Source: Rhodobacter sp.
GTDB lineage: Bacteria; Pseudomonadota; Alphaproteobacteria; Rhodobacterales; Rhodobacteraceae
Reading direction: 5' to 3'
DNA length: 64,000 nucleotides
NCBI GenBank assembly: GCA_027489175.1
Contig: JAIYAE010000002.1
Coordinates: 1-64,000, forward strand
In this document: positions 24,325-41,131 of the stretch, one piece after another
How the letters are laid out: each line of letters starts with the position of its first letter
Position numbering within the stretch: the stretch's first letter is position 1
Notes under the pieces: generated by a model
Databases searched by the model: none
Told to the model about the DNA's origin: nothing
What the model saw: only the letters and a program-made list of their open reading frames with translations
Made by a program: the position numbers and the translations under genes

Positions 24325-25002
24325 CTAGTTTGGATCCTTTGTGGGCCTAGCAGTCTCGACAAGAGTGCCGTTGCTCGCAAGTTCCTGCGCAGCAAGAAGC
24401 ACCTCCACACGATTGCGCACATTCAACTTCTGAATCAGAACTGTCATGTGATGCTTGACGGTCTTCTCGCTGATCAGAAGCTCAAGCGCGATCTGCCGAT
24501 TGGTTTTGCCGCGAAGCAAAAGCCGAAGCACGTCCTCTTCGCGTTTGCTGAACGTCACTCTTGGCACGGACCGTTTCGTATGTTCCTTCCGCAGCGCCGC
24601 GACAACCTTCGTCGCGAAGCTTGGGGTGATGTAGGTCTCGCCGGCATTGACCCGCTCGATCGCATCCCGAAGGTCTTCAAGGCTGCTTCCCTTCAGCACG
24701 AAGCCCAAGGCCCCTGCCTCAAGTGTCGCTACAGCCGTGTCGATGCATTCCGAGGCCGTAAAGACCAGGATCTTGGTCTCAGAGCTTCGCGAGGTAACCT
24801 TCGCGATCGCTTCAAGAGCGTTGCCCGGCATCCCAAGATCAACCACCATGACCCGGGGCCGTACCGTCTGGGCAATCTCGACAATGTCGTCAGCGGTCTT
24901 GCCGATCGCGATCACATTCATGTCCGACCCGGACGAGAAGAGACGCGCCAGCCCTGCAAGCAATATTGGATGATCGTCGATAAACGCTACGGTAGTAGTC
25001 AT
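24325..25002 (-). CDS. NarL/FixJ-type response regulator
   Basis: A 225-residue protein with an N-terminal receiver domain (acidic pair D9-D10, phospho-acceptor D55 in VVDLGMPG, Thr in VFTASE, Lys in FVLKGSS). The C-terminal LuxR-type helix-turn-helix has FSKREEDVLRLLLRGKTNRQIALELLIS-type sequence; the recognition segment is KTVKHHMTVLIQKL. It would bind DNA once phosphorylated by the histidine kinase encoded just upstream on the same strand. The kinase gene faces the peroxidase gene, so the peroxidase and exporter are the obvious candidate targets. The direct repeats at 26832-26963 are possible sites. The 167 bases between this stop and the gene ending at 24157 hold nothing I recognise. Confidence 0.92.
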   Translation of the reverse strand: MTTTVAFIDDHPILLAGLARLFSSGSDMNVIAIGKTADDIVEIAQTVRPRVMVVDLGMPGNALEAIAKVTSRSSETKILVFTASECIDTAVATLEAGALGFVLKGSSLEDLRDAIERVNAGETYITPSFATKVVAALRKEHTKRSVPRVTFSKREEDVLRLLLRGKTNRQIALELLISEKTVKHHMTVLIQKLNVRNRVEVLLAAQELASNGTLVETARPTKDPN

Positions 25003-25318: not shown

Positions 25319-26704
25319 CTAAGAGAATGGCAGCCGTACCACCAAACGCGCCTGATCTCCGAGAGGCTCAAGCTCTACTGTGCCACTAAAAGCGGCAATT
25401 CGTCTGCGCATGCCTTGCAGACCAAGCTTCTGTTTCGTGTCGTCTCCCTGAACATCAGTACTAGGCCGCCGCGCGCTGACGATGTTAACCACGAGAGATG
25501 CCTTTTCAACCGACAAGGACACCTGGACCGGACCTTCGCCGCCGTGTCGCGTGGCATTCGACAGACCTTCCTGAAGAACCCTGTAGAGGCAAATGCGCCG
25601 CGATAGGTCCAGTCCCGGCAGGGATGAGGGTCCATCAATCGACAGATCCACGGATGTCCCGGTAAGGGAACGGTGCCGACTGACCGCCAACTTTACGGTC
25701 TCCAACGGCCCAAGCTCCTCGATTTCGGGCAGGATCAATCCCGCTGAAATGCGTCGCAATTCCCCAACCGCTTGCTGAACAAGACTGGGCGCCGCGGCAT
25801 CACCGTTCAATTTGGGTTCGGCCGTCGTCGATCCCATCAAAGCGGCCAATCCCAGCAGCTGCAGCGGGCCATCGTGGATTTCCGCGCCGATGAAATTCAG
25901 CGTCTGCTCATTGGCTTCCGCCGCTGCATACCGCGCCTTCTCAGCCTCCTGCCTGAGGGCATGGTTCTGGCTGACAAGAAGCTGCTCGGCCTCCAGCCGT
26001 GCGCGCAGCACTTCGCTTTGGCGCGCGCTAAGGCCCAACATTCCGATCATCGCAACCATTGCCGATCCGATCGAAAGCCACACCGTCCGTTCAAACTGAC
26101 CGGAGCTGTCGATAAGTCCCTTGGCATCAAGGTAAATCTCGCCAACCGCAATTGGGGTGCTCTGGCTGGGGTCCATGATCGGCATGTAGACTTCAAGGTA
26201 GGGAAGGGCGATTGGGCCAACTTCGTGCCCATCTTCGACCGTTTCAAGCTGGACCACCCGCTGCCCGCGCAGCGCCTCGACCAGGTCTGAGTCGTCGTGA
26301 TCTTCAACATGCAGGCCGTTCGTGCTTGAGTAGAGAAGCTGACCGTCTGGAAGCCAGATCTGTGCAGCGATCATCGGCTTGGTGCCCAGGTGCCTTGCCA
26401 GCGCTGCCTCAAGTGCCTCTCGCTGTTGCGCGCTTGTTCCGCTGCTGCTGAGCCTGGTCCGGGCGTAAGGTTCAAGAAAATGGGTCAGAAAGGTTTCGGC
26501 AATTTCGATCTGGACTTGCATCCGGGTCTCCCGGAACTCGCTCATGATCCTGCTTCCCGTTCCAACCATCATGAGCGCGGTTAGAACCGTCAGAACGACG
26601 GGAAACATGCGAAGCCGAAACTGGGGAAAGCGGAATCTTGCCGGGTCTGAAAGTCTCGCTCGGTGATCGGTGGTGCCGCTGGACGAATCAGGCTTCACGT
26701 TCAA
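25319..26704 (-). CDS. HisKA_3-type sensor histidine kinase with periplasmic sensor domain
   Basis: A 461-residue kinase. A membrane segment at about 34-52 and a second at about 207-226 enclose a periplasmic sensor domain of about 150 residues. That domain has LPDGQLLYSSTNG and PYLEVYMPIMDP, resembling a dCache/PAS-like double sensor. A coiled coil (231-268) leads to the dimerisation helix with phospho-accepting His277 (GAEIHDGPLQLLGL). An HATPase domain follows, with VLQEGLSNATRHG (N box) and LGLQGMRRRI. This is the kinase type that partners NarL-like regulators. It diverges from the peroxidase gene; the signal is unknown. Confidence 0.92.
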   Translation of the reverse strand: MNVKPDSSSGTTDHRARLSDPARFRFPQFRLRMFPVVLTVLTALMMVGTGSRIMSEFRETRMQVQIEIAETFLTHFLEPYARTRLSSSGTSAQQREALEAALARHLGTKPMIAAQIWLPDGQLLYSSTNGLHVEDHDDSDLVEALRGQRVVQLETVEDGHEVGPIALPYLEVYMPIMDPSQSTPIAVGEIYLDAKGLIDSSGQFERTVWLSIGSAMVAMIGMLGLSARQSEVLRARLEAEQLLVSQNHALRQEAEKARYAAAEANEQTLNFIGAEIHDGPLQLLGLAALMGSTTAEPKLNGDAAAPSLVQQAVGELRRISAGLILPEIEELGPLETVKLAVSRHRSLTGTSVDLSIDGPSSLPGLDLSRRICLYRVLQEGLSNATRHGGEGPVQVSLSVEKASLVVNIVSARRPSTDVQGDDTKQKLGLQGMRRRIAAFSGTVELEPLGDQARLVVRLPFS

Positions 26705-27092
26705 TCTCCAAACCAGGCACCGCTACCGCAACGGTTGAATAGTCTCGCAGCTCGCGTGCACTGACACACTCTCCACACGCATCGCGCACATTGAATGCAA
26801 TTACATATATTTACTGAATGTTAACTGATTGCAACTTTGCGATCTATCAGACTTTGGTCTTAGCTGGCGTCAGACTTTCTGCCCAGGCAGCACTGCAACT
26901 TTGGGTCGGGACATGCCGCCGACCTTGGGCAATTCCGACCGCAGCTAATTTGTGTCAACTTTGGGAAAATCAAGTGTCCTGCTGCCATTAAAAGGACACA
27001 AACCGCCCAACCTGCTGCAACTGCAAGATAACCATTTGAAATTAAAGATAAAACCCGCGCCTTTGCGTGTCGGGTAACAGGGAGAAATTGCC
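26705..27092. promoter_or_regulatory. Divergent regulatory region with repeated ACTTT boxes upstream of the peroxidase gene
   Basis: This 388-base region lies between the kinase gene and the peroxidase gene. The middle is AT-rich (TTACATATATTTACTGAATG near 26800). CAACTTTG occurs three times, starting at 26832, 26896 and 26956 (spacing 64 and 60 bases, close to whole helical turns). TCAGACTTT occurs twice, near 26847 and 26870. All five share ACTTT on the same strand. They are candidate binding sites for a regulator of the peroxidase. The peroxidase ATG follows a GGAGAAA ribosome site at 27081. Confidence 0.5.
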
Positions 27093-30000
27093 ATGACTGT
27101 GAAGCTCAACGCTGCGGACCTCAGCTTCATCCTGCGCCAGATCAAGATTTCCGAGGCGCATTCAAGCGGAACTGCGTTGACCGACATCTGGGTGGACGCA
27201 AATGGCAATGTCGTTCCGGCCAACACACCCGGCGCAGTGCCAGCGCTCTCGGATCCGCATGTGCCCTATGGTCTTCGCACTGTCGACGGCACTTTGAACA
27301 ACCTTGTGGAAGGGCGCGAAACCTGGGGTGCGTCAGACCAGCCAATGCCGCGGCTGTTCGACCCGAACTGGCGGAACGATGCAGACGGCGACATGATGCC
27401 GCTTGGCCCGCCGGGCGGTCCGCGCGTCACCAACAACGATTACGGCGTCATCGGTGGCCCATCAGCCGGCAATGGTGGACACAGCGCGAATGTGGCCGAT
27501 GCTGATCCTCGGATCATCTCGAACCTCGTGGTCGATCAATCGATCAGCAACCCGGCCGCCGTTGCCGCATGGTTTGCCAATGATGCGGCCATTGCGGCCT
27601 TCCATGTGCGCCATGGCGAAGATGCAATCCCCGTTGCCCCCGGCGACCCGACGGCCGGGACCGGCAACAGGATCGCAATCGACAACATCGATCTGGCTAC
27701 CCTGCCAAACATTGCTCCGGATGATGGGATTTCGGCCCCGTTCAACGCGTGGATGACGTTCTTTGGCCAGTTCTTCGACCACGGTCTTGATCTGATCTCC
27801 AAAGGCGAAAATGGCACGGTCTACATCCCGCTGCAAAGCGATGACCCGCTGGTGCTGGGCGCGGACGGAGTTCTTGGCACGCCCGATGACCTGCCAAATC
27901 ACCTTCGTTTCATGGCCCTGACCCGGGCCACGCCGACGGCAGGCCCCGGGGTCGACGGGGTTCTCGGCACGGCCGACGATACCGAGCACGAAGGCAACAA
28001 CGTCACCACGGCCTTTGTTGACCAGAACCAGACCTATACCTCGCACGCCTCGCATCAGGTCTTTCTGCGGGAATACAAGATGGGGCCGGATGGGCCCATC
28101 GCCACTGGCAAGCTCCTCGATGGCGAGACCGGTGGACTGCCAACCTGGGCCGATGTGAAAAAGCAGGCGCTGGAAAAGCTTGGCATTCAGTTGTCAGACG
28201 TCGATGTGCTGAACGTGCCGCTGTTGCGCACCGACCCCTACGGCGAATTCATCCGCGATGAGAACGGATTTGCCCAGGTGGTCGTCGGCCTAGGCCCGGA
28301 CGGTATCCCGAACACGGCTGATGACATCGTGGTTTCGGGAACGCCCGAATCCCCCGTTGTGCTCAGCACGTTGAACGGTGGGCTGGGCCCGGTCCGTACC
28401 GCGCATGCTTTCCTGGACGATATCGCCCATGCTGCCACACCGGGCGGCGGAAAGGTGGCAGACGCAGATTTTGGCGTGAACGACGCCAATGCGAACGGAA
28501 TCGTCGATGAGGGTGACACCTTCAATGACGCGAACGGAAATGGCCAGATTGATCCAGGTGAAGGCCATGTTTCACGGACCCAGTATGACAACGAACTGCT
28601 CGACCGGCACTTCATCACCGGCGACGGGCGCGGAAACGAAAACATCGGCCTGACGGCAGTCCACCATGTCTTCCATCAGGAACACAACCGCCAGGTCGCC
28701 GCGCAGAAGCTGACGGTCCTCGATACCGGGGATATCAATTTCATCAATGAATGGCTGGCCGATGACATCTCGGCAGAAGATCTTGCCGGCTATGCCTCGA
28801 TGACCGCCGTGCAGAAGACCGAATTTGCAGACACTTTGGGCTGGGACGGTGAGCGGCTGTTCCAGGCTGGGCGTTTCGCCACCGAGATGCAGTATCAGCA
28901 CCTCGTGTTCGAAGAGTTTGCCCGGAAGATCCACCCGAACATCGATCCGTTCATCTTCAACAACGTCACGGACATCAACCCGGCCATCTTCGCCGAGTTT
29001 GCCAATGTCGTGTACCGGTTCGGCCATTCGATGCTGACCGACTCGATGCCGCGGGTGTTTGCCAACGGCACGACCGATGATATGGGGCTCATCACCTCGT
29101 TCCTGAACCCCGTCGCTTATGACAACGACACTGCGCTGACCGCTGATGAAGCTGCCGCTGCGGTGATCCGCGGCATGACGGCCGAGCGTGGCAATGCGAT
29201 GGACGAATTCATCGTCGGATCGCTGCGCAACAACTTGGTTGGCCTGCCACTTGACCTTGCGGCGCTGAACATCGCCCGCGGCCGGGACACTGGCATGCCG
29301 TCGTTCAATGAGGCCCGGGCGCAACTCTTTGCTCAGACCGGATCCAGCTGGCTGAAGCCCTACGCGACCTGGGCCGAGCTTGCTGCGAACCTCAAGAACC
29401 CGATGACGATCGTGAATTTGATCGCCGCCTACGGCACACTTCCAGAGATCGCTAATGCTACGACCCTCGAGCAAAAACGCGCGCTTGCCTTTGACGTCGT
29501 CTTCGGTGGTGGGGCCTTCGATGAAGATTTCCGCAAGGATTTCCTGCATGGGCGAAATGGCTGGACGGCAGAGAATTCTGGCCTGAACGATATCGACCTT
29601 TGGGTTGGCGGCCTGGCCGAACGCATCATGCCCTTTGGCGGGATGCTCGGGTCCACCTTCACTGCGATTTTCGAGGCGCAGATGGAAGCGCTGCAGTTCG
29701 GTGACCGGTTCTACTACCTGTCCCGGACCCAGGGTCAGAACTTCCTGAACGAACTGGAGCAGAATTCGTTCTCGAAGATGCTCTTGGCCAACACAACCCT
29801 TGCCCAACCCGGAGCCGACGGCATCCGCGGCACTTCGGACGATATCATCGCGCACCACATCGGCGTCGATGCGTTCGCCAAGTATGACTTCGTGCTGGAA
29901 GTGAACAAAGACAACCAGCTTGTTGACGATCCGGAAGGCATCGACCCGCTTTTGGAAGCGATCGGGCTGGGCAAGGTCATGCGCGACGACCCGACAACGG

Positions 30001-33000
30001 CCGCGGTCGAGACGAATTACCTCCGCTTCACCGGGGGCGAGCATATCGTCGTCGGCGGCACAGCCGGCAATGACACGATCATCACCGATGACGGCGATGA
30101 CGGCATCTGGGGCGATGCGGGAGACGACTTCATTCAGTCCGGCTTCGGTGTCGACCTCGTGAACGGTGGTGCCGGCAACGACATCATCCTGGATGCAGGC
30201 GACGAGGCCGACTTCCTAAAGGGCGAAGAGGGTGATGACGTGATGGGCACGTCAAGCGGCCTCGACATCCTGATGGGCGGCAAGGGCAAGGACGTCATCT
30301 TCCTTGGGGCCGACGCCTCCGAAATCTTCGGCGGTGAAGGCGATGACTTCATGCTGGGTGGCGAGGGTGCCGACTTCCTGATGGGGAACGAAGGCAGCGA
30401 CTGGATCGAAGGCGGCAACGGGTTTGACGGTATCGCCGGCGACAACACCGAGCTTTTCTTCAACAGCCGCATCATCGGCCATGACGTGATGTTCGCAGGG
30501 TCCGAAGAACAGGATTTCGATGCCGAATCCGGCGACGATATCATGGTCCAGGGCGAAAGCGTGATGCGGAACGAGGGCATGTTCGGCTTCGACTGGGTTA
30601 CCTACAAGGGTGTCCAGACGGCCGCTGATGCCGACATGCGCATCAAGATCTTCACCACGGAAGAGCAGGACATCCTGCGCAACCGCTTTGACAAGGTCGA
30701 GGCACTGTCCGGCTGGGAAAAGGATGACCAGCTGCGCGGGGACGATCGTGTCTCGGGAGCCGGTGCGGTCGGCGCTGGCGCCAATGAAGGCATCTTTGAC
30801 CGGGACGGCCTTGACCAGGCCGGGATTGACCGGATCGCAGGCCTTGAGCAACTTGTCACACTGGGATCCGAGCAGCTGACTTGGGAAGAAGGCAACATCC
30901 TCCTTGGCGGCGGCGGCTCTGACAGCCTGACCGGTGGCGGCGGCAACGACATTCTGGATGGCGACCGCTGGCTGAACGTGCGCATTCGGATCACCGATGC
31001 AGCGGGGGCAGAGAACACTCAAGCGAACGAAATCGCGACGGTCGACACGCTGAAGCACATCTTCACCGCGACCGACGGTGTTGACCCGTCCTGGGTGGGC
31101 AAAAGCCTGTTCGAGCTTCTGGTGGCCCGTGTGGTTGTTCCGGCTCAGATGCATATCGTGCGGGAAATCCGTGACGGCAGCAGCGAAAGTGACGTGGACG
31201 TCGCTGTCTTCAGCGATGACCGCGACCAGTATACCATCACCTACCTGCCAGACGGCCTTGTGCGGGTCTCCCATACCGGGTTTGGCACGAATGAAGATGT
31301 TCTGATCGACGATGGCACGGATACGCTGCACAACATCGAGGTTCTGCGGTTCCGCGACGGCGATTTCACCGTCGCAGGCGGGGCCGCTATTGGGGTCCCG
31401 GCAATCAGCGACACCACACCGCTGGAAGGCCAGGCACTGACCGTCGATCTCGGCGGTATCGAAGGCGCTGTCGGTCCGATTGCGGTCCAGTGGCGGGTTT
31501 CGGAGGATGGAACGACCTGGACCAACATACCGGGTGAGACCAACACCACCTTCACGCCGCAGAATCTGGCCGGCATCCTGCAGGGCGCGCAAACCGGGCT
31601 GCTCCTGCAGGTGGTTGCGACCTACACCAACGCCGCGGGCCAAGTGGTGACTTCAACCTCCAGCGCAACCGCCCCGGTCGGTTGGAATTGGACCGGGTTG
31701 AACGGTCAGCGGAATGACTTTTCGGGCACCGAAGGCGATGACGTCGCCGTCGGAGGCAATGATCGCGACGATCTGGAAGGCAACGGCGGTGCTGACAACA
31801 TGCATGGCGGGGCCGGCGATGACCGGCTGCGCGGCGGCGAGGGTGCCGATACGCTTGACGGTGGCGCGGGCGAAGACCGGGTCATTGGCGGAAACGGTGA
31901 TGACGTATTGCACGTCGATTTCAACTCCGGGGCCAGTGGTCAGGACATCATCGAAGGTGACCTCGGCACCGATACGCTTGAGATCATCGACACGGCGGCC
32001 ACGTCAAGCTTCACGATCATGACCCGTGCCGTGGCCGAAAGCCTTGGCATCACCCTCCTTGAAGACACCAGCGAGATCGTCATCACCCGCAACGGTATCA
32101 ATCAGGGGTCGGTGGTTGCAGAGATTGCGACCATCGAAGAAATCGTCATCGACACAGTCGGGGCAAGCGGTTCAGGCACCGTTGGCACGCCGGGTGGGGA
32201 TACGATCACCATCATCGGTGACTTCACCCCGACCAGCCTGCTTCTCAGCACGATCACCATCAATGGCTCGGCAGCGGATGATACGGTCGACCTGTCGGCC
32301 TTCGCTTCGGCCCACCGTGTGGTCTTCCGCAGTGCTGGCGGCAATGACACCATCATCGGCAACATCCGGGCCCAGGACGTCATCGACCTGCCTGGAACCG
32401 GTGAGACCAGCGTCACCCACGGCGCGAACGGAATGGTGACCGTCAGCCGTGGTGGTGCCTCGGTGACCTTCGACGGCTCTGGCGCCATGCCGACCGTGCC
32501 AGGCCTGGCAGCGGACGATGACGCAGCGGCTGGAGGCTTCTTCCTGACGGCTTCCGACCTTGCCGGGCTGAAGAACCTGGTCAACGGACGGCCCGCGTTT
32601 GAAGGTGACGATGACACCGCAGGGGCGACGGGCGTCCGCACACTCAGCGGCGAAGGCAACAACGTCGACAACCCGCTTTACGGTACGGCTGGTGAAAGCT
32701 TCATCCGCCTTACCGACGCGCGCTATGGCGAATACAACCCGGCCACCGGCAACCGCGACATCAACCCGATCTTCGACGGACTGGATCCAAGGGAAATCTC
32801 CAACATCCTTGGCGAACAGGAAGCCGGACTGGCCAAAAGCGCGGTCAATGCCAACATTCTGTTCATGGCCTTCGGTCAGTACTTCGACCACGGCCTCGAC
32901 TTCCTGCCGAAAAGCGCGGTCAACGGCATGATCGAGATCGGCGGCCCGGGCATGTCGCGGGGTCCCGGTTCGGATAACCCTGCTGACCTGACCCGCGCGA

Positions 33001-35699
33001 AGGTTGACTACATCGACGCGAATGGCGTGCCCCAGCACGAAAACATGACCTCGCCCTTCGTGGATCAGAACCAGGCCTACGGCAGCCATGAGCTTGTCGG
33101 CCAGTTCCTCCGCGAAAGCGATGGCGAGCAGGGCTACGGCATGCGCCTTCTGCAGGGCGAGCCTGATCCATCGGATCCGGATTTCACCCTTCTGCCGACG
33201 CTCCGCGACGTCATCCTGCACCATTGGGAGGCCAATACGATCTTCCGGGATCCCGGTCTGCCGGGTGGGGCAGTTGCCTTCCAGACCGCCTATGCGGGAC
33301 TGGTTGATGGGACGGGCGCAATTGATGCCGCGATGGTCCGGTCGCTTGCCGGCAACTTCCTCGGGTCTGGGCAGCCGCTCTTGCTGGACGCCAACCCGTT
33401 CATCAATCTGCTTGACCACCGCGTGGCCGGCGATGGCCGGGCGAACGAGAACTTTGCCCTCACATCGATCCACACGATCTGGGCGCGCAACCACAACTTC
33501 CATGTCGAAAACCTGATCGATCAGGGCTTTGTCGGAACGGCCGAAGAGGTCTACCAGGCCGCGAAGATGCTGAACGAAAGCGACTACCAGCGCGTCGTGT
33601 TCCAGGAATTCGCTGACAAGCTCATCGGCGGCATTCGCAGCGCAGACGGTGGTAACGACAACCACGGCTGGGATGGCTACAAAGACTCAGTGGACTCGCG
33701 CATCAGCCACGAGTTTGCCTCGGCGGTCTACCGTGTCGGTCATTCCCTGATCGGGCAAACGCTTCAGGTGATGGGGCCAGATGGCAATCCGATCGAGGTG
33801 CCGCTGTTTGATGCCTTCCTGAACCCGACAAATGCACCGTCGGCGTTCACCGGCCCGCTGCCTCCCGGCTATGTACCGCAGCCTGGCTATGCCCAACACG
33901 GCGTGGCGGCGATCATGGAAGGAACCGCGACGCAGCTGGCGGAAGAGATCGACTTCAACATCGTCGATGCCGTCCGCAACGACCTGGTGCGGATCAACGC
34001 TGACCTCTTTGCCTTCAACGTCGCAAGGGGTTGGGATGTCGGCCTTGGCACACTGAACCAGGTTCGGGCCGGTCTTGCCGCGTCGAACAACATCTACATC
34101 GCACAGGCGGTCGGCTTGGCCGGTGATCTGTCACCCTACACCAGCTGGGACGATTTCCAGGCCCGCAACGGGCTGAGCGATACCGTCATCACCCAGTTCA
34201 AGGAGGCCTATCCCGATCTGGTGCTGTCGACGGCCGAAGATATCGCCGCCTTCGTTGCGGTGAACCCGGACATCGAACTGCTTGATGGTCCGAACGGCAC
34301 CAAGATCGTCAAGGGCATCGACCGGGTCGATCTTTGGGTCGGCGGCCTCGCCGAACAGCACATCAACGGCGGTATGGTCGGCCAGACCTTCTGGGTTGTT
34401 CTGCACGAACAACTTGACCGTCTGCAGGAAGGCGACCGGTTCTACTACCTTGACCGGTTCGAGAACTTCGACTTCTACGGCACCTTCGGCGAGGACACGA
34501 CCTTCGCCAACATCATCGCCCGCAATACCAGCCTGACCGGCCTCGACTCGTCGATCTTCGACGCGGTCAATGATGCCGAAGAGGAGGAAGAAGACGGCGA
34601 AGACAACGACGACGACGGCGACGCCGATGATGACGGTGACGGAGACGGTGACACCGGCAGTGGCGGTGACAACGACGGCGATGCCGACGATGACGACGAC
34701 AATGACGATGACGACGACGGCGACACCGACAATGACGGCGACACCGGCGAAGACTCTGACGGAGAGTCCGACGAAGACGACGAAGACTCCGATGAGGATG
34801 ATGACGAAGACACTGACCACGATGATGACGATGCAGACAATGGCACGGATGATGATGTCGGCGTCCCACCACTGGCCGCTTCGGGTATCATCGCTGGCAC
34901 TGCAAACGGCGAGGCCCTGTTTGGAGCAGCCGAAGCTGAGAACATCATGGGTCTGGGTGGCCGGGACATGATCTTCGCAGGGGCAGGGGCGGATAACATC
35001 CTTGCCGGTGCGGGCAATGACATCGTCTTCGGCGACGGTGGCGATGACCGGATCTTCGGCGAAAGTGGAGACGATTTCATCGAAGCTGGTGCCGGCGGCG
35101 ATTTTGCCGTCGGCGGGGCGGGGGATGATGTCTTCAGGGCCACGGTCGGAGACGGAAGCGATGTCTACTACGGTGACGATGTTCTCGGCGGGGTTGGCAC
35201 GGACACGCTCGACATGTCGGCCATTCTTGCCGACGCTGTAGTGGACCTTGGCTCTGGCCCGAATGGCCGAGGGATGGCGCAAAGTTCGGCCACCGGGACG
35301 GATGTTCTCTGGAATTTCGAGAACTTCGTCGGCGGTGCCGGTGACGATGTGGTCATCGCCGGCCGGTCAGCCAACGTCATGGATGGCGGGGTCGGTGACG
35401 ACACCTACACTTTCCTGACCACCGAAGATGCCGACGGTGACGTGATCGCAAGCTTCGAACCTGGCGACAAGATTGACCTGTCCCAGATCGACGCAAACGG
35501 CAGCGGTGCTGGAAATGGCACTTTCACGCTGGTGTCAGGCGCTTTCACTGCGGTGGGTCAGCTTGCCATCAGTCTGGAATCGGGCAGCGATGGCGACTTC
35601 ACGGTGATCGAGGGCAACACCACCGGCGACGCCGGATCCGAGTTCTCGATCAAGCTTCGTGGCCACCACACTCTGACTGCGGATGATTTCCAGATGTAA
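27093..35699 (+). CDS. Tandem animal-type haem peroxidase with RTX repeats, MopA-like, type I secreted
   Basis: A 2868-residue protein with no signal peptide. First peroxidase domain, about 130-930: distal His230 in FGQFFDHGLD, Arg513/Glu516 in GDGRGNEN, proximal His645 in YRFGHSML, then ARGRDTGMPSFNEAR. RTX block at 985-1118, smaller blocks at 1270-1293 and 1544-1611, with an Ig-like domain at about 1430-1510. Second peroxidase domain, about 1850-2480: His1933 in FGQYFDHGLD, Arg2116/Glu2119 in GDGRANEN, His2217 in YRVGHSLIG. Then a 93-residue acidic tract (2496-2588), RTX repeats from 2599 and a C-terminus typical of type I substrates. Both domains keep the catalytic set. The double-domain, RTX layout matches Mn(II)-oxidising peroxidases (MopA) of Aurantimonas and Erythrobacter type. 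Mn oxidation is inference; halide oxidation or superoxide production is possible. The exporter genes follow directly. Confidence 0.9.
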   Translation: MTVKLNAADLSFILRQIKISEAHSSGTALTDIWVDANGNVVPANTPGAVPALSDPHVPYGLRTVDGTLNNLVEGRETWGASDQPMPRLFDPNWRNDADGDMMPLGPPGGPRVTNNDYGVIGGPSAGNGGHSANVADADPRIISNLVVDQSISNPAAVAAWFANDAAIAAFHVRHGEDAIPVAPGDPTAGTGNRIAIDNIDLATLPNIAPDDGISAPFNAWMTFFGQFFDHGLDLISKGENGTVYIPLQSDDPLVLGADGVLGTPDDLPNHLRFMALTRATPTAGPGVDGVLGTADDTEHEGNNVTTAFVDQNQTYTSHASHQVFLREYKMGPDGPIATGKLLDGETGGLPTWADVKKQALEKLGIQLSDVDVLNVPLLRTDPYGEFIRDENGFAQVVVGLGPDGIPNTADDIVVSGTPESPVVLSTLNGGLGPVRTAHAFLDDIAHAATPGGGKVADADFGVNDANANGIVDEGDTFNDANGNGQIDPGEGHVSRTQYDNELLDRHFITGDGRGNENIGLTAVHHVFHQEHNRQVAAQKLTVLDTGDINFINEWLADDISAEDLAGYASMTAVQKTEFADTLGWDGERLFQAGRFATEMQYQHLVFEEFARKIHPNIDPFIFNNVTDINPAIFAEFANVVYRFGHSMLTDSMPRVFANGTTDDMGLITSFLNPVAYDNDTALTADEAAAAVIRGMTAERGNAMDEFIVGSLRNNLVGLPLDLAALNIARGRDTGMPSFNEARAQLFAQTGSSWLKPYATWAELAANLKNPMTIVNLIAAYGTLPEIANATTLEQKRALAFDVVFGGGAFDEDFRKDFLHGRNGWTAENSGLNDIDLWVGGLAERIMPFGGMLGSTFTAIFEAQMEALQFGDRFYYLSRTQGQNFLNELEQNSFSKMLLANTTLAQPGADGIRGTSDDIIAHHIGVDAFAKYDFVLEVNKDNQLVDDPEGIDPLLEAIGLGKVMRDDPTTAAVETNYLRFTGGEHIVVGGTAGNDTIITDDGDDGIWGDAGDDFIQSGFGVDLVNGGAGNDIILDAGDEADFLKGEEGDDVMGTSSGLDILMGGKGKDVIFLGADASEIFGGEGDDFMLGGEGADFLMGNEGSDWIEGGNGFDGIAGDNTELFFNSRIIGHDVMFAGSEEQDFDAESGDDIMVQGESVMRNEGMFGFDWVTYKGVQTAADADMRIKIFTTEEQDILRNRFDKVEALSGWEKDDQLRGDDRVSGAGAVGAGANEGIFDRDGLDQAGIDRIAGLEQLVTLGSEQLTWEEGNILLGGGGSDSLTGGGGNDILDGDRWLNVRIRITDAAGAENTQANEIATVDTLKHIFTATDGVDPSWVGKSLFELLVARVVVPAQMHIVREIRDGSSESDVDVAVFSDDRDQYTITYLPDGLVRVSHTGFGTNEDVLIDDGTDTLHNIEVLRFRDGDFTVAGGAAIGVPAISDTTPLEGQALTVDLGGIEGAVGPIAVQWRVSEDGTTWTNIPGETNTTFTPQNLAGILQGAQTGLLLQVVATYTNAAGQVVTSTSSATAPVGWNWTGLNGQRNDFSGTEGDDVAVGGNDRDDLEGNGGADNMHGGAGDDRLRGGEGADTLDGGAGEDRVIGGNGDDVLHVDFNSGASGQDIIEGDLGTDTLEIIDTAATSSFTIMTRAVAESLGITLLEDTSEIVITRNGINQGSVVAEIATIEEIVIDTVGASGSGTVGTPGGDTITIIGDFTPTSLLLSTITINGSAADDTVDLSAFASAHRVVFRSAGGNDTIIGNIRAQDVIDLPGTGETSVTHGANGMVTVSRGGASVTFDGSGAMPTVPGLAADDDAAAGGFFLTASDLAGLKNLVNGRPAFEGDDDTAGATGVRTLSGEGNNVDNPLYGTAGESFIRLTDARYGEYNPATGNRDINPIFDGLDPREISNILGEQEAGLAKSAVNANILFMAFGQYFDHGLDFLPKSAVNGMIEIGGPGMSRGPGSDNPADLTRAKVDYIDANGVPQHENMTSPFVDQNQAYGSHELVGQFLRESDGEQGYGMRLLQGEPDPSDPDFTLLPTLRDVILHHWEANTIFRDPGLPGGAVAFQTAYAGLVDGTGAIDAAMVRSLAGNFLGSGQPLLLDANPFINLLDHRVAGDGRANENFALTSIHTIWARNHNFHVENLIDQGFVGTAEEVYQAAKMLNESDYQRVVFQEFADKLIGGIRSADGGNDNHGWDGYKDSVDSRISHEFASAVYRVGHSLIGQTLQVMGPDGNPIEVPLFDAFLNPTNAPSAFTGPLPPGYVPQPGYAQHGVAAIMEGTATQLAEEIDFNIVDAVRNDLVRINADLFAFNVARGWDVGLGTLNQVRAGLAASNNIYIAQAVGLAGDLSPYTSWDDFQARNGLSDTVITQFKEAYPDLVLSTAEDIAAFVAVNPDIELLDGPNGTKIVKGIDRVDLWVGGLAEQHINGGMVGQTFWVVLHEQLDRLQEGDRFYYLDRFENFDFYGTFGEDTTFANIIARNTSLTGLDSSIFDAVNDAEEEEEDGEDNDDDGDADDDGDGDGDTGSGGDNDGDADDDDDNDDDDDGDTDNDGDTGEDSDGESDEDDEDSDEDDDEDTDHDDDDADNGTDDDVGVPPLAASGIIAGTANGEALFGAAEAENIMGLGGRDMIFAGAGADNILAGAGNDIVFGDGGDDRIFGESGDDFIEAGAGGDFAVGGAGDDVFRATVGDGSDVYYGDDVLGGVGTDTLDMSAILADAVVDLGSGPNGRGMAQSSATGTDVLWNFENFVGGAGDDVVIAGRSANVMDGGVGDDTYTFLTTEDADGDVIASFEPGDKIDLSQIDANGSGAGNGTFTLVSGAFTAVGQLAISLESGSDGDFTVIEGNTTGDAGSEFSIKLRGHHTLTADDFQM
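34578..34856 (+). repeat. Low-complexity acidic tract (93 residues of mostly Asp/Glu) inside the peroxidase
   Basis: Residues 2496-2588 of the peroxidase are almost entirely Asp, Glu, Gly, Asn, Ser and Thr, with runs such as DNDDDGDADDDGDGDGD and DEDDEDSDEDDDED. The DNA is a degenerate repeat of gac, gat, ggc and gaa codons. The frame is open through it on both sides, so it is real protein, not an assembly error. It separates the second peroxidase domain from the C-terminal RTX block and could bind many divalent metal ions. Confidence 0.9.
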
Positions 35700-35715
35700 T
35701 CCGCAGGGCACGATA

Positions 35716-35750: not shown

Positions 35751-35792
35751 AAGACGTTAGACGGACACATTTTTAGAACGTGAGGAAATCGG

Positions 35793-37601
35793 ATGTCATC
35801 GCGTAACAAGAGACCGAAGGGGGCTGCTGCAGCAGCCGTTGGCAAGATCAAGGGTTTGGTCCTGTTCCTGGTTTTCGTCTCGGCGGTCATCAGTATTTTG
35901 GCTTTGACCGGTTCATTTTACATGCTGCAGATTTACGACCGCGCTTTGGTCAGTGGCAGCGTTCCGACCCTTGTCGTGATTTCGGCATTGGCCATCGGGC
36001 TTTACCTGTTCCAGGGCATGTTCGACATCATCCGCTCGCAGGTTCTGGTGCGTGTTGGCGCGCGGCTGGACCGGCGGCTGGCCCCCCTCGCGCACCGGGT
36101 GGCCATCGACATGCCGCGGCTTGGCTATTCAACGTCAGAAGCGCTTGAGCGTGGCCGTGATGTGGACACCATTCGCGGTTTTTTTGGGTCCCAAGGCCCT
36201 GCCGCCATTTTTGACCTGCCTTGGGTGCCACTGTTCCTTGGGTTCGTCTACTTGCTGCACCCGACACTTGGCGCCCTGACCCTTGGCGGTGCCATTGTCC
36301 TGACGCTGATCGCCGTCCTGACCGAACTTCGGACCCGGAAGTGGAGCCAGGCGACGATCGGCGCGACGGTTGAAAGGAACGCAATCGCCGACTCCAACGC
36401 GCGCAATGCCGAAGTTCTGAAGGCGATGGGTTTTGCGTCCCGGGCGGTTGACCGCTTCAACACCGCCAACGAACGCCATCTGGAACTGCAAACCCAGACC
36501 AGCGACATCTCGGGCACTTTTGGTGCCATCTCGCGCGTTTTGCGCATGCTGCTGCAGTCGGCTGTCCTTGGTCTTGCAGCCTACCTGACAATTCAGGGTG
36601 AGCTTTCGGCCGGGGCGATCATTGCGGCCACAATCGCCTCGTCGCGCGCCATGGCGCCAATCGATCTTGCCATCGGGAACTGGAAGCAGATCGTCGCCGC
36701 CCGGGGTGCCTGGGCACGCGTGACTGACACCATGGAAGTGCTTGATCGTCAGCCGGTCCCGATGAAACTGCCTGCGCCCGTGCGCTCGCTGAAAATCGAA
36801 GGTGTCACCGTCGCAGCCCCGGCAAGTGGCCGCGTCCTGCTCAGCGACGTCACCTTCGAAGCCGTGGCAGGCCAGGCCATCGGCATCATCGGGCCAAGCG
36901 GGGGCGGGAAGTCGACCCTTGCCCGCGCGATCACCGGCATCTGGCCGGTGTTGCGCGGCTCCGTCCGGCTTGACGAGGCCGAGCTTTCGCAATGGTCCGA
37001 TGCCGACCGCGGGATGCATGTCGGCTACTTGCCGCAAGAAGTGGCGCTTCTGGATGCAACGGTCGAAGAAAACATCGCCCGGCTGGACCCAACCCCGAAC
37101 CCGAACACGATTGTCGAGGCTTCGCGGGCAGCTGCCGTGCATGAAATGATCGTCCGGCTGCCCGACGGGTACCGGACGCATCTGGGGCCGATGGGGGCGT
37201 CAATCTCGGGCGGCCAGCGCCAGCGTTTGGGGCTGGCCCGTGCCCTTTACGGCAACCCCTTCGTCGTTGTGCTGGACGAACCGAACGCAAACCTCGACCC
37301 TGAAGGCGAAGCCGCACTTTCTGCCGCCATCGAAGGCATCAAGCGCCGCGGCGGCATCGCCATCGTGATCGCGCACCGGCCCTCGGTCCTGCAGTGCTGC
37401 GACCTGATCGGCGTCGTCCAGCGCGGCAAACTGACCGCCTTCGGCCCCAGAGAGCAGATCATGAACCCGCGTCCGGTGCCGAACGCAACTGTCGCCTCTG
37501 CGGCGGCCCCGATCGGGGCGCAACCAGCGCGCCGGGCGAAAACGTCCAAGCGCGTGAACCAGGCGTCTAGTAGCGCAATCCCCGGGGGCCCCGTGTCATG
37601 A
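35793..37601 (+). CDS. Type I secretion ABC transporter (PrtD/AprD family)
   Basis: A 602-residue fused permease-ATPase. Membrane segments lie in the first 300 residues (LVLFLVFVSAVISILALTG, VISALAIGLYLFQGMF). The ATPase has Walker A GPSGGGKST at residues 367-375, signature SISGGQRQR and Walker B FVVVLDEPNANLD. There is no N-terminal C39-like domain, which fits the PrtD/AprD group that exports RTX proteases and related proteins. It should export the peroxidase, working with the HlyD-type adaptor at 39806 and an unlinked TolC. The last four bases overlap the next gene. The C-terminal 50 residues are an Ala/Pro-rich extension. Confidence 0.93.
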   Translation: MSSRNKRPKGAAAAAVGKIKGLVLFLVFVSAVISILALTGSFYMLQIYDRALVSGSVPTLVVISALAIGLYLFQGMFDIIRSQVLVRVGARLDRRLAPLAHRVAIDMPRLGYSTSEALERGRDVDTIRGFFGSQGPAAIFDLPWVPLFLGFVYLLHPTLGALTLGGAIVLTLIAVLTELRTRKWSQATIGATVERNAIADSNARNAEVLKAMGFASRAVDRFNTANERHLELQTQTSDISGTFGAISRVLRMLLQSAVLGLAAYLTIQGELSAGAIIAATIASSRAMAPIDLAIGNWKQIVAARGAWARVTDTMEVLDRQPVPMKLPAPVRSLKIEGVTVAAPASGRVLLSDVTFEAVAGQAIGIIGPSGGGKSTLARAITGIWPVLRGSVRLDEAELSQWSDADRGMHVGYLPQEVALLDATVEENIARLDPTPNPNTIVEASRAAAVHEMIVRLPDGYRTHLGPMGASISGGQRQRLGLARALYGNPFVVVLDEPNANLDPEGEAALSAAIEGIKRRGGIAIVIAHRPSVLQCCDLIGVVQRGKLTAFGPREQIMNPRPVPNATVASAAAPIGAQPARRAKTSKRVNQASSSAIPGGPVS

Positions 37602-39784
37602 TCGAAGTCAAGGGAACACGGTCCGCACGGACCGAACAGGATCCGACCGATCCACTGGGCCTGATGAAGCCCGTCGCGACGGGCAGCGGGCTCCTTGGTG
37701 CCTTTGTCGTTGGGCTTCTTGGTCTTGCTGCCTATCTGCGTTCGTTTCTTTGGTTTGAACCCGCGCCCGCATTTACAGCGGAAGAGCGTAAGCCCCCCGC
37801 CGAAGAGGATGACAGCACGTCTGCAGCACGGCACTCGGACGCGGTCCTGGCCGTTGCAAGTTCGTCAAGCGCTGGCAACTCCCGGTCTCCGGAACCCGAA
37901 ACCCAAGACGAAACGACAATGACCCTGCCGGTGGTTTTCGGGCCGTTCGACAGTGGTTTCTTCCCTCTCAAATCGGCGCCATTGGCGTCCGGCTTTTTGC
38001 CAAACGCGCCGGCAAACTCTGGGCTTCCCCCGTTTGGGACGAACAAGGTCCCGGTCGATACCACGGGGCTGAACGGTCCGGGGACCGGCGGTCCATCGGG
38101 CGATCAGCCCGATAGCATCGATATCGACCTGCCCGACGACTTCGACAACGTTGCTCCTCCATCCGGCGTCAACCCGCCCCAGACCCGGAACCGTGCGCCG
38201 CAGAATTCCGGTCCGGTCAACCTTGGCGAGGTTGGCAGTGGCGCGGCGCTGGCCATCGTGCTGTCCAGCCTCGTCGCGAACAGCAGCGATGCCGATGGCG
38301 ACCCGCTCACCGTGACCAGGGCCAGCGCCTCCTCCGGCAGCCTTCAGGCAAAGCCCGGCAGCGTCCGCTTCGTCGCTGATACGGAACAGTTGGGGACCGT
38401 GCAGATTTCCTACCAGGTGACAGATGGGGTGAACGCCGTCACGCAGACCGCTTTCGTCACCGTCGTCGAAAATCAGTTCAATGGCAGCGCCGATGCCGAT
38501 CTTATCTTGGGCACCGAAGGTCGTGACCGTGTGATGGCCTTTGCAGGCGATGACAACATCGCCGTTTTCGGCGGCCGCGATGTTGTTTTCGGCGGGTCTG
38601 GAGATGACAACATTTCCGGCGGTGCAGGGCGGGACTCCCTCTACGGTGATGATGGGAATGATCTGATATCGGGTGGTCTCGACGCCGACTGGATCTCTGG
38701 CGGTGAGGGCGATGACCGGCTCTATGGGGAAGCCGGCGATGACCACATCCAGGGCGACGGGGGCCATGACCTGCTTGACGGCGGCGCGGGCAAAGACACG
38801 CTGCTGGGAGGAGATGGGGACGACACCGCGTCTGGCGGTGACCAGGACGACGTGATTGCCGGTGGACTTGGTGACGACGCCCTGTCGGGTGACGCCGGCA
38901 AGGACATCCAGTTTGGTGATGACGGCCAGGATACCGTTTTGGGTGGGACTGGCGAAGACGTCCTCTTCGGCGGGCTGGGGGCAGACCACCTCTTTGGCGG
39001 CGCCGACAATGACGTGATGTCCGGCGATGAGGGGGGCGATACCCTGCTTGGCGAAGCCGGGGCCGACCTCGTGACCGGCGGTGAAGGCAACGACATTGTC
39101 CATGGCGGTGAAGGCAACGATTTCGTTCTGGGAGAGGCTGGCAATGACGTCCTTGCTGGCAACGAAGGCGCAGATACCCTTGTCGGCGGCGCTGGCGACG
39201 ATGTTTTCCACGCCGTCAGTGACGGTCTTGCCGATCAGTTTGACGGTGGCGAAGGCGAAGACGAACTCAGCTACGCCACTGAAACCGCTGACCTGACCAT
39301 TGACCTTGTGCTGGAACAGGTCTTCGTCGCAGCGGTGCCAGAGGACAGCTTTTCCGCCGTTGAGGCCTTCGTTGGCGGATCGGGCGATGACACTTTCATC
39401 GCCGATGCGGGCGAGGCGACCTTTACCGGCAATGAGGGCGCGGACACCTACAATTTTGTCCAAGGAGATACGGTGGAAGCCCCGCCCTCTGCGTTCCGGA
39501 TCACCGATTTCGGCTGCGAAGACCTCGTCTCGCTCCGCTACACCGGAGCGCACTATTCGATCCAGCGGGCGCAGCGAGAGCTGGAGGATCGGATCGAAGA
39601 CCTGTTCGAGGACTTTGCCGAACGCTTGACCCTGGATGAACCGAAGCTGCGGTACTTCCACGAATGGTCGGAAGACTATCGCCGCACCGTTGTCGAGGTA
39701 GACTTCGACCGTGACAACACCGTTGACCTGACCCTGACGATGGACGGCGAGCTTGTCCTTGACGTCTTCCGCGAAAGCACCTGA
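37598..39784 (+). CDS. Membrane-anchored RTX protein with cadherin-like domain, inside the type I secretion operon
   Basis: A 728-residue protein with an unusual layout. A single hydrophobic segment lies at about 29-52 (GSGLLGAFVVGLLGLAAYL), followed by a Pro/Ser-rich linker to about 208. A cadherin-like domain spans about 209-291 (SDADGDPLTVTRASASSGS). About 25 RTX nonapeptides run from about 296 to 590 (GGSGDDNIS, GGEGDDRLY), which bind calcium. The C-terminus (about 600-728) is acidic and helical (RELEDRIEDLFEDFAERL) and ends in EST. Type I substrates normally lack an N-terminal membrane segment, so this one may stay anchored in the inner membrane with the RTX part in the periplasm. Its start overlaps the exporter stop, and the adaptor gene follows 21 bases later, so it is probably a dedicated part of this secretion system. 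An alternative is a second exported substrate. Confidence 0.8.
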   Translation: MIEVKGTRSARTEQDPTDPLGLMKPVATGSGLLGAFVVGLLGLAAYLRSFLWFEPAPAFTAEERKPPAEEDDSTSAARHSDAVLAVASSSSAGNSRSPEPETQDETTMTLPVVFGPFDSGFFPLKSAPLASGFLPNAPANSGLPPFGTNKVPVDTTGLNGPGTGGPSGDQPDSIDIDLPDDFDNVAPPSGVNPPQTRNRAPQNSGPVNLGEVGSGAALAIVLSSLVANSSDADGDPLTVTRASASSGSLQAKPGSVRFVADTEQLGTVQISYQVTDGVNAVTQTAFVTVVENQFNGSADADLILGTEGRDRVMAFAGDDNIAVFGGRDVVFGGSGDDNISGGAGRDSLYGDDGNDLISGGLDADWISGGEGDDRLYGEAGDDHIQGDGGHDLLDGGAGKDTLLGGDGDDTASGGDQDDVIAGGLGDDALSGDAGKDIQFGDDGQDTVLGGTGEDVLFGGLGADHLFGGADNDVMSGDEGGDTLLGEAGADLVTGGEGNDIVHGGEGNDFVLGEAGNDVLAGNEGADTLVGGAGDDVFHAVSDGLADQFDGGEGEDELSYATETADLTIDLVLEQVFVAAVPEDSFSAVEAFVGGSGDDTFIADAGEATFTGNEGADTYNFVQGDTVEAPPSAFRITDFGCEDLVSLRYTGAHYSIQRAQRELEDRIEDLFEDFAERLTLDEPKLRYFHEWSEDYRRTVVEVDFDRDNTVDLTLTMDGELVLDVFREST

Positions 39785-39805: not shown

Positions 39806-41131
39806 ATGAAATCCAAAGATCTGCAACCGGCGGTCCAGGGTGAAGACAAGTCCTTCGACAAGCTGGGTGGACGCGTCATCTTCGGGATGGTGCTTGCGGT
39901 TGCGCTGCTTGGGGGTGTCGGAGGCTGGGCGTTTACGGCCAGGATCAGCGGCGCGGTGATTGCGACGGGATCAGTGCAGGTCGACCAGAACCTCAAGCAG
40001 GTCCAACATCTGGATGGCGGCATCGTCTCTGAAATCCTGGTGCGGGAAGGTGACACCGTCGCGGAAGGCCAGCTCCTGTTCCGCCTGAACGACACCCAGA
40101 CCCGCGCCGAGCGTTCGATCCTGACGGCGCAGATCAATGAAGTCGAGGCGCGCCGCGCCCGTCTTGTTGCTGATCGGGACGGACAGCCTGAAATCATCTT
40201 CCCCGCGCGGCTGACGGTCGATGACCCGGCGCTGTTCGAAGTCGTTGCCGGGGAAACCCGGCTGCATCAGGGCAATCTGACCAACCGCAAAAACCAGCGC
40301 CAGCAGCTTGAACTGGGGATCCTCCAGATCAATGACGAAGTCGCAGCCCTCAAGGCGCAACGCGACGCCCTGGTCGACGAACTGGTGCTGGTCGAGGACA
40401 GCTATCAGCGGATCAAGGAATTGCACGAGAACGGACTGGTCGAGACGCCTCGGATCGAGGAAGCGAAACGGGAACTCGTTCAGCTCCGCGGCCGCCTTGG
40501 CGAACTCGATGCCAACATTGCACGGTCAAAGTCACGGATCAGCGAAGTGCAGATGCGTGTTCTGGCCATCGATGAAGTGGCAAGGACTGAGTCCCAGCGG
40601 GAACTCGTGGTCGTGGAATCCCGGCTGCAAGAGCTTTATGACCGCTTGGCCGCCGTCGAGGATCGTCTGCTTCGCACCGAGATCCGCGCGCCGATTGCGG
40701 GTCGGATCAATGAACTCTCGGTCTTCACCATCGGCGGTGTTGTCACCCCTGCAGAAGTTCTGGCGACGATCGTGCCGGAAGGGGCAAAGCTCAGCATCGA
40801 AGTGCAGCTTCCGATCACCTCCATTGACCAAGTCTATCTTGGGCAGCCGGCACGCGTGAAATTCTCGGCTTTCAACCACAGGACCACGCCGGAATTGGCT
40901 GCCAAGATCAGCTACATTTCAGCGGCCACCACGGTTGCAGGCCCGGACTCCCAGCCCTTCTACATCGGCAATGTCGAGCTTTTGCCGGAAGAGATGGCCC
41001 AGCTTGCCGGTCTGGAACTGATGCCCGGCATGCCGGTCGAGATTTACCTGACCACTCAGGAACAGACGGCCATGGCCTATTTTTCCAGACCGCTGATCGA
41101 CCAGTATGAAAGGGCGCTGCGCGAGGAGTGA
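39806..41131 (+). CDS. Type I secretion membrane-fusion protein (HlyD/PrtE family)
   Basis: A 441-residue adaptor. It has a short cytoplasmic N-terminus, one membrane segment at about 24-44, a lipoyl half (QVDQNLKQVQHLDGGIVSEI, then VREGDTVAEGQLLFRL), a long coiled-coil hairpin (about 95-280), the second lipoyl half (IRAPIAGRINELSVFTIGG) and a beta-barrel end. PrtE-type adaptors link the ABC exporter to TolC. The order exporter, RTX protein, adaptor in one operon makes it the partner of the 35793 gene. GGAG precedes the ATG. A 6-bp stem (GGCTGG/CCAGCC, 41174-41196) lies after the gene and may help termination. Confidence 0.93.
   Translation: MKSKDLQPAVQGEDKSFDKLGGRVIFGMVLAVALLGGVGGWAFTARISGAVIATGSVQVDQNLKQVQHLDGGIVSEILVREGDTVAEGQLLFRLNDTQTRAERSILTAQINEVEARRARLVADRDGQPEIIFPARLTVDDPALFEVVAGETRLHQGNLTNRKNQRQQLELGILQINDEVAALKAQRDALVDELVLVEDSYQRIKELHENGLVETPRIEEAKRELVQLRGRLGELDANIARSKSRISEVQMRVLAIDEVARTESQRELVVVESRLQELYDRLAAVEDRLLRTEIRAPIAGRINELSVFTIGGVVTPAEVLATIVPEGAKLSIEVQLPITSIDQVYLGQPARVKFSAFNHRTTPELAAKISYISAATTVAGPDSQPFYIGNVELLPEEMAQLAGLELMPGMPVEIYLTTQEQTAMAYFSRPLIDQYERALREE

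Follow-up and report, generated by a model that had tools for sequence, protein, structure and literature searches.

A 64,000-nucleotide stretch of DNA from Rhodobacter sp. (contig JAIYAE010000002.1 of assembly GCA_027489175.1, positions 1 to 64,000; hereafter the window) carries a locus that, judged from its sequence, probably encodes a MopA-type haem peroxidase for Mn(II) oxidation outside the cell, together with the control of its gene. The gene for the tandem peroxidase lies between a two-component pair upstream and a type I exporter downstream. A 16-bp palindrome in front of the gene is a candidate for the Mn(II) control of mopA in Alphaproteobacteria, and it also stands before a multicopper oxidase operon in the same genome.

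The tandem peroxidase

The sequence-only reading of this DNA had described two animal-type peroxidase domains in one open reading frame. This was borne out by the frame itself, which starts with ATG and encodes 2,868 amino acids without an internal stop, and by Pfam, where An_peroxidase matched at 6.8e-125 in five stretches and HemolysinCabind at 2.9e-30. Along the protein follow an N-type domain, two RTX blocks, a C-type domain, a very acidic stretch, a further RTX block and a serralysin-like C-terminus.

27093..35699, plus strand: MopA-type tandem haem peroxidase, 2,868 residues (open reading frame, Pfam, identities, residue scan)
27093..29810, plus strand: N-type peroxidase domain, residues 1-906 (residue and motif scan; identity to MopAs)
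30060..30452, plus strand: first RTX repeat block, about residues 990-1120 (GGxGxD at 1025-1107; NCBIfam RTX matches)
31713..32162, plus strand: second RTX repeat block, about residues 1541-1690 (GGxGxD at 1572-1599; Pfam, NCBIfam)
32613..34532, plus strand: C-type peroxidase domain, residues 1841-2480 (identity to the Aurantimonas manganoxydans C domain; AlphaFold model; Foldseek)
34890..35696, plus strand: third RTX block and C-terminal serralysin-like region, presumed type I secretion signal (GGxGxD at 2674-2765; NCBIfam Zn_serralysin)

A residue scan found all eight catalytic residues named in the earlier reading at exactly their positions (His230, Arg513, Glu516 and His645 in the N domain, His1933, Arg2116, Glu2119 and His2217 in the C domain). 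Both domains therefore have the distal His, the Arg-x-x-Glu pair and, with Asn726 and Asn2309, the proximal His-Asn of animal-type haem peroxidases. Asp229 and Asp1932 before the distal His are also present, as are Gln226 and Gln1929; the roles of the Asp, the Gln and the proximal Asn we take to be those known from the peroxidase-cyclooxygenase fold. Among the relatives described below, 125 of the 126 N-type domains kept the catalytic set, the exception being a gap; Asp229 was present in 124, with one Ser. Of the 45 C-type domains, 44 kept it, again with one gap, and the Asn was present in 42, with three gaps. The conservation of Gln, Asp and distal His in the N domains arises partly by construction, since the scan for relatives used the pattern FGQFFDH; this bias does not touch the Arg, Glu, proximal His or Asn, or any residue of the C domain.

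The protein contains 15 GGxGxD repeats, in three blocks and one pair, which together with the Pfam match place it among the RTX proteins. The NCBIfam match to Zn_serralysin at residues 2744-2864 lies below the cut-off of that family. Four strict PERCAL motifs (G-x-D-G-x-x-[GN]-[TN]-x-D-D) were found at residues 256, 286, 401 and 907. They are confined to the N domain or lie just after it, and the motif scan of the C domain (residues 1841-2480) found none. This placement agrees with the two-domain homologues other than that of Pseudomonas putida, in which PERCAL is restricted to the N-terminal domain according to PMC3396595. By its motifs the protein bears the marks of the "long peroxicins", and it keeps two full haem sites together with PERCAL and RTX Ca-binding modules. 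Between the C-type domain and the last RTX block (34569-34856, residues 2493-2588), 62 of 96 residues are Asp or Glu, and this stretch is a possible cation-binding linker.

Kinship with tested Mn(II) oxidases

Relatives were collected by a scan of GTDB contigs, which gave at least 506 confirmed ones; the best 80 of these were kept, two of them from tested Mn oxidisers. One is A. manganoxydans SI85-9A1 (L107, also L280). The other, L106, is the mopA of Erythrobacter SD-21, as both published cloning primers (PMC6247904) match it, at 10001 and 12886. The N domain of the window is 58% identical to A. manganoxydans MopA over 913 residues and 54% identical to SD-21 MopA over 957, and the C domain is 71% identical to A. 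manganoxydans MopA over 650. Roseovarius mucosus was the closest named relative among the best 80 of at least 506, with identities of 71% for the N domain, 75% for the C domain, 76% for the ABC protein, 58% for the regulator and 39% for the kinase. The 116 matching frames in the loci examined comprised 60 with one N domain, 42 with N plus C as in the window, 11 with N plus N, one with N, N plus C, and two fragments.

Each domain was then placed in a tree. After a length filter, which 124 of the 126 N-type domains and 42 of the 45 C-type domains passed, a FastTree was built from these and nine short peroxidases (175 domains in all); it was rooted at its midpoint because the short peroxidases did not form one clade. 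The N-type and C-type domains formed two clades (support 0.952 and 0.95). The window's N domain fell into a 33-member clade that holds both tested MopAs (0.925) and, with A. manganoxydans, into a 27-member clade (0.976). Its C domain grouped with the A. manganoxydans C domain in a clade of ten (0.957). A quick IQ-TREE of 84 N domains concurred, with 92 for the clade of both tested MopAs and 96 for the A. manganoxydans clade. Both domains thus group with tested MopAs, and neither grouped with halide-oxidising or unrelated peroxidases in these trees, from which the mammalian enzymes were left out and compared by alignment only.

The AlphaFold model of the C domain (pLDDT 76, pTM 0.82) was searched with Foldseek and matched the cyanobacterial peroxidase 8s6c, DdPoxA (6erc) and myeloperoxidase, with 17-22% identity for the peroxidases among the matches listed. 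In structural alignments of the C domain, identity to myeloperoxidase and lactoperoxidase was 17-20%, as against 54-71% to MopA, so the protein is not closer to these enzymes than to MopA. Taken together, identity and tree position indicate that the protein is an orthologue of the tested Mn(II) oxidases, with A. manganoxydans MopA matched in both domains. Both tandem peroxidases of the MopA type and the oxidation of Mn(II) by MopAs have been published, and the gene therefore joins an existing type as a further member.

The palindrome upstream of the peroxidase

A palindrome, with a weaker copy beside it, was found in the divergent intergenic region between the kinase and peroxidase genes, 230 bp upstream of the ATG of the peroxidase and 142 bp upstream of the start of the kinase.

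26847..26862, no strand assigned: putative operator palindrome TCAGACTTTGGTCTTA (14.9 bits; the only site of at least 14 bits in the 64-kb window)
26870..26885, no strand assigned: second, weaker copy TCAGACTTTCTGCCCA at a pitch of 23 bp (10.0 bits)

The consensus TCnGACYWWRGTCnGA was derived from the upstream regions of 42 kinase-linked peroxidases, including that of the window. Upstream regions were extracted from 95 of the 109 loci, which makes 96 with that of the window; the other 14 were dropped, either because the start pattern failed or because less than 200 bp was available. At 12 bits or more, the palindrome was present in 35 of the 42 kinase-linked regions, as compared to 0.2 of 42 in shuffles, and in 16 of the 54 other regions. 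Five-fold cross-validation detected it in 34 of 42, against 0.65. When the model was trained without the presumed Rhodobacterales loci, the window site still scored 14.8 bits, and 12 of 13 scored held-out loci of this group reached 12 bits, the exception being Limimaricola L089. The commonest spacing between palindromes was 23 bp (22 pairs), followed by 46 bp (10) and 69 bp (4).

The mopA gene of A. manganoxydans, which lay outside the training set, is preceded by sites at −224 (17.7 bits), −201 (10.9) and −70 (11.7). The R. mucosus region (L146), one of the 14 that were dropped, was read by hand and shows sites at 9727 (8.2 bits), 9750 (16.0) and 9772 (10.0). In all loci 90 sites reached 14 bits, and 58 of them are near a peroxidase start, in about 5% of the bases. 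Of the 32 distant ones, 14 encode the haem motif FDHG and were rejected as operators because they are coding look-alikes.

The palindrome and the two-component genes occur together. Among 84 loci, 38 had both and 29 neither, while ten had the palindrome only and seven the genes only (Fisher 5e-8). With the loci paired on the tree, 18 independent pairs gave 9.5 in the same direction and 0.3 in the opposite one (median p 0.004, range 0.001-0.07).

A regulon called genome-wide by a degenerate pattern with one mismatch was rejected, as it gave no clear excess over the reversed control; we therefore rely on the positions before orthologous genes and not on genome counts. A Mn riboswitch or other known RNA was rejected for positions 24000-42000, where Rfam at gathering thresholds gave no match. 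Two further N-plus-C loci have strong palindromes in front of ABC genes of the exporter type, at a distance of some kb from the peroxidase (L182:2116-2222 and L183:1028-1043); the peroxidase upstream regions of these loci were not among the extracted set.

The two-component pair and the exporter

The genes that flank the peroxidase, a two-component pair upstream and a type I exporter downstream, were found by Pfam and NCBIfam as the earlier reading had described them.

24325..25002, minus strand: NarL/LuxR-type response regulator, 225 residues (Pfam Response_reg 2.2e-16, GerE 1.3e-18)
25319..26704, minus strand: membrane sensor histidine kinase, 461 residues, TTG start (Pfam HATPase_c 3e-4, below the curated cut-off)
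35793..37601, plus strand: type I secretion ATP-binding cassette (ABC) permease/ATPase of the PrtD family (TIGR01842 631 bits, cut-off 510)
37598..39784, plus strand: cadherin-like RTX protein, 728 residues, with an N-terminal hydrophobic helix (Pfam Cadherin_5, HemolysinCabind)
39806..41131, plus strand: HlyD-type membrane fusion protein (TIGR01843 333 bits, cut-off 209)

The pair is of the NarX/DesK class, with an H-box and an ATPase domain in the kinase and a receiver and a LuxR-type helix-turn-helix in the regulator. The regulator is 58% identical to one adjoining the R. mucosus peroxidase and 46% identical to the one of A. manganoxydans. In an alignment of 35 kinase sequences, D278 and G279 were invariant and the H-box His277 was present in over 90%. 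The periplasmic sensor of the kinase would comprise about residues 57-205, between two hydrophobic helices. The kinase structure model reached a pLDDT of 80.6; the best 50 Foldseek rows fit the kinase core, DesK among them, and none assigns the sensor, so a sensor class by fold was rejected.

The secretion locus had been called complete. This held for the ABC protein and the membrane fusion protein, which adjoin their presumed RTX substrate, and failed for the outer-membrane component: no TolC was found in the locus, and the one TolC above its family cut-off is on another contig (G000:C16). The cadherin-RTX protein recurs as a member of the exporter operon, and a hydrophobic N-terminal segment (19-residue mean of at least 1.4) was present in eight of nine such proteins examined, including that of the window. 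Such a helix is odd for a type I substrate, and the protein may instead belong to the exporter, as a component anchored in the inner membrane.

Gene order was counted from homologues above set scores within 8 kb. Where at least 4.5 kb of upstream sequence was available, kinase and regulator were both present in 15 of 34 N-plus-C loci, the kinase alone in four and the regulator alone in three; both were present in 20 of 47 one-domain and 2 of 10 N-plus-N loci. An ABC gene downstream was found in 26 of 27 N-plus-C, 29 of 41 one-domain and one of five N-plus-N loci with 2.5 kb downstream, and within 210 bp in 22 of 27 N-plus-C loci other than the window's. In A. manganoxydans the order is operator, mopA, ABC (64%), cadherin-RTX (31%), HlyD (42%) and response regulator (46%), the latter about 8 kb past mopA; from the peroxidase to HlyD this is the gene order of the window. 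The recurrent linkage to the peroxidase and the shared operator support the earlier claim of a dedicated sensor pair.

A multicopper oxidase as a second target

Multicopper oxidases are the other known class of Mn oxidases. The source genome has one Pfam Cu-oxidase_2 match at E of 0.001 or lower, a multicopper oxidase that is followed by an SCO1/SenC-cytochrome c protein and has type II secretion genes on its opposite side. About 210-235 bp before its conserved start are two sites of 14.5 and 13.0 bits, 24 bp apart, detected with a model that was trained on peroxidase upstream regions only. Corresponding sites were found in Fuscovulum ytuae L093 (18.1 bits), Tabrizicola L148 (17.8) and G423 (18.6, 18.1 and 13.9), so that the palindrome precedes the multicopper oxidase in four of five genomes, the source genome included; L093 and G517 were counted once because their coordinates are identical. 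Since the site stands before the multicopper oxidase-SCO operon as it does before the peroxidase, one regulator may control both oxidase types.

NCBIfam gave CueO, PhsA and FtsP matches to the multicopper oxidase, all below threshold. Its N-terminus is twin-arginine-like (RRELMKWG), which together with the neighbouring genes suggests a type II export route. The multicopper oxidase is matched at all in 63 of 394 genomes of the family, and nearly whole at 58% identity or more in three, the source included. It matched 500 plasmid records, and the two at 60-80% identity both also carry the peroxidase. G423 has the multicopper oxidase with its sites, and its matches to the peroxidase query are weak and in short frames. 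In Limimaricola variabilis (L089:8544-10841), the multicopper oxidase and SCO genes are directly beside the peroxidase, and a 17.3-bit site is located just before the kinase gene.

Proposed mechanism and alternatives

For a MopA-type Mn(II) oxidase with its own control, we propose that the peroxidase would be exported through ABC, HlyD and TolC, the latter supplied from elsewhere in the genome, and would fold outside the cell on Ca2+. Haem would be bound in both domains and Mn(II) oxidised to Mn(III). The linked kinase would sense a periplasmic signal, with Mn(II) or a redox cue as candidates, and the response regulator would bind the palindrome array between the divergent genes and act as an activator. 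The same regulator may switch on the multicopper oxidase-SCO operon, giving two oxidase types with two export routes. More tentatively, a single NarL-type regulator might, through a 23-bp-pitch array of these palindromes, run a two-enzyme regulon for extracellular Mn oxidation in Alphaproteobacteria. This would pair a type I-secreted tandem haem peroxidase (MopA) with a multicopper oxidase that is exported by the Tat/type II route and has an SCO-cytochrome c protein as its partner, the set often being mobile and carried on plasmids. It would also supply the Mn-responsive control that has been missing for mopA of A. manganoxydans.

Several observations weigh against the proposed mechanism. The tested enzyme of SD-21, MopA-hp, works slowly, with a kcat of 1.6 per min, and requires NAD+ and Ca (PMC6247904). 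According to PMC11930936, P. putida MopA was never active in the wild type or in mutants without both copper oxidases, and family membership is therefore no proof of oxidation in the host. As for the operator, 18 of the 32 strong distant sites are not coding look-alikes. In seven loci the two-component genes are present and the site is absent, and in ten the site occurs where no such genes were recognised. With one mismatch allowed, the degenerate pattern showed a mild excess in the source genome (33 strand-hits, 21 in the reversed control), and three other genomes gave 13, 12 and 18 per strand for 13, 18 and 6 in the control. One of the two exact pattern places in the source genome is a perfect palindrome of 19.7 bits, TCGGACCTTGGTCCGA, at L225:2555-2570 (G000:C25) in a short gap between RelA/SpoT and DUF2062 genes, which misfits the model. 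The Limimaricola L089 multicopper oxidase adjoins the peroxidase, yet no operator of 9 bits or more was found before it, and the A. manganoxydans response regulator has no recognised kinase next to it.

The enzyme might oxidise Mn(II) indirectly, by making superoxide that oxidises Mn(II) and removing the resulting peroxide, as proposed for Roseobacter AzwK-3b. This route has been described for MopA homologues of a related marine alphaproteobacterium, SD-21 MopA-hp was not stimulated by H2O2 (PMC6247904), and two haem sites of differing type could split the superoxide and peroxide activities. However, SD-21 MopA-hp showed saturable Mn(II) oxidation kinetics that required NAD+ and not H2O2 (PMC6247904). 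The sequence holds nothing that separates direct from indirect oxidation, and we consider the indirect route unlikely. Equally unlikely, in our estimate, is a general extracellular peroxidase (for phenolics, halides or peroxide defence) or a Ca-dependent surface or adhesion protein, for which Mn(II) oxidation would be secondary or lacking. The two-domain homologue PepA of P. putida is active as a peroxidase and has been discussed for adhesion and oxidative stress (PMC3396595), the fold is shared with myelo- and lactoperoxidase, and the operon includes a cadherin-RTX protein. Against this stand the identities to the tested Mn oxidases, 54-71% as compared to 17-20% to the solved halide-oxidising enzymes in structural alignments, and the operator that the peroxidase has in common with the multicopper oxidase-SCO operon.

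The palindrome could also be real and bound by another regulator, with the two-component pair controlling something else, and to this we give a little more weight, although we still regard it as rather improbable. The ten loci with a palindrome and without recognised two-component genes in the stretch examined would fit such an arrangement, and in one of them, A. coralicida L117, the regulators that a search of the genome turned up were no more than 32% identical over their length. But some of the ten end on short contigs, and in another, A. manganoxydans, the regulator is located further off in the same cluster. The co-occurrence of site and two-component genes across the 18 independent tree pairs and the position of the window site between the divergent kinase and peroxidase genes argue for the linked pair.

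Distribution and mobility

The N domain was matched in 26 of 394 sampled genomes of the window's family, at 50% identity or more in 15 (source included). In 31 other genomes of the genus no match to the peroxidase part was found among the matches listed (to about E 5e-6), where only the RTX and C-terminal parts matched. Of 72,556 plasmid records, 32 matched, 28 of them over at least 80% of the N domain; they include plasmids of Agrobacterium, Shinella, Paracoccus, Bosea, Limimaricola, Azospirillum and Plesiomonas. The G+C content is 60.6% over 24325-41131, compared to 63.9% to the left and 65.8% to the right. Plasmid matches, patchy presence and G+C content fit a mobile locus, which may have been transferred. 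Placing the window on a known plasmid was rejected, since its flanks match plasmid records only in short or low-identity pieces. Contig C24 has 132,570 bases.

On the Bosea sp. Tri-49 plasmid (L090:7740-9086), a gene for an Nramp-family divalent metal transporter adjoins the regulator of the peroxidase locus. In Fulvimarina pelagi (L109:17518-21831), broken frames downstream of the main gene repeat the C domain of the peroxidase, which looks like either a decayed duplication or a sequencing error.

Other genes in the window

Type VI secretion genes are located at 1341-14890 (VasE/TssK, DotU-OmpA, IcmF/TssM and a VgrG-type spike at 8206-10518), and a further IcmF-like protein and a PP2C phosphatase are encoded in their vicinity. 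Between glycosyltransferase-like genes, at a short distance from the peroxidase locus, 18580-21510 encodes a 976-residue protein of the caspase fold (Peptidase_C14) that contains Sel1 repeats and gave a weak match for peptidoglycan binding. A sulfatase-domain protein with an RTX repeat is encoded at 54443-56785 among glycosyltransferases.

Comparison with known systems

The MopA of A. manganoxydans SI85-9A1 is alike in its tandem of N-type and C-type domains with RTX, in the ABC, cadherin-RTX, HlyD and response regulator genes of its cluster and in the palindrome upstream. It differs in its longer frame of 3,332 residues, in the regulator gene, which follows the exporter operon, and in the lack of a recognised kinase beside it. 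The SD-21 enzyme shares the N-type domain, which was shown to oxidise Mn(II) in a haem- and Ca-dependent manner (PMC6247904), but has a single peroxidase domain and no exporter or two-component genes above thresholds within the stretch examined (L106). Pseudomonas MopA/PepA is likewise a two-domain peroxidase with PERCAL and RTX. In the Pseudomonas loci examined, P. putida not among them, the second domain is N-type or absent, and exporter genes, where found, are mostly upstream on the opposite strand; two-component genes were nearby in 2 of 10 N-plus-N loci. Myeloperoxidase, lactoperoxidase and DdPoxA share the fold and the catalytic set and differ by their low identity of 17-22% in structural alignments. 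For these three we know of no PERCAL, RTX, tandem arrangement or type I export.

P. putida GB-1 MopA has been implicated in Mn(II) oxidation, Mn(II) induces the mop genes in P. resinovorans, and the A. manganoxydans MopA protein rises with Mn(II) (PMC9765421). In P. putida, Mn-oxidase genes are under the two-component control of MnxS1/S2-MnxR, and the mnxG operon includes an SCO gene (PMC8218464), but mnxG and mcoA have IHF-sigma54-type promoters (PMC11930936), whereas here a NarL-type regulator is combined with a palindrome array. The array precedes both peroxidase and multicopper oxidase in our analysis. The regulatory mechanisms of bacterial Mn(II) oxidation are called unknown in the abstract of PMC11930936. 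In the open-licence literature searched we found no description of the two-component pair, the palindrome or the joint control of the multicopper oxidase; Anderson 2009, Geszvain 2016 and Geszvain and Tebo 2010 are outside this scope and could mention neighbours. The control layer of palindrome and linked pair looks new.

The finding matters for how bacteria switch on Mn(II) oxidation and why some of them carry both peroxidase-type and copper-type oxidases. An operator before both enzyme types and before the mopA of a tested oxidiser would give a direct handle on this, with one regulator, one DNA element and two enzymes, and it would predict which uncharacterised peroxidase loci share the same programme.

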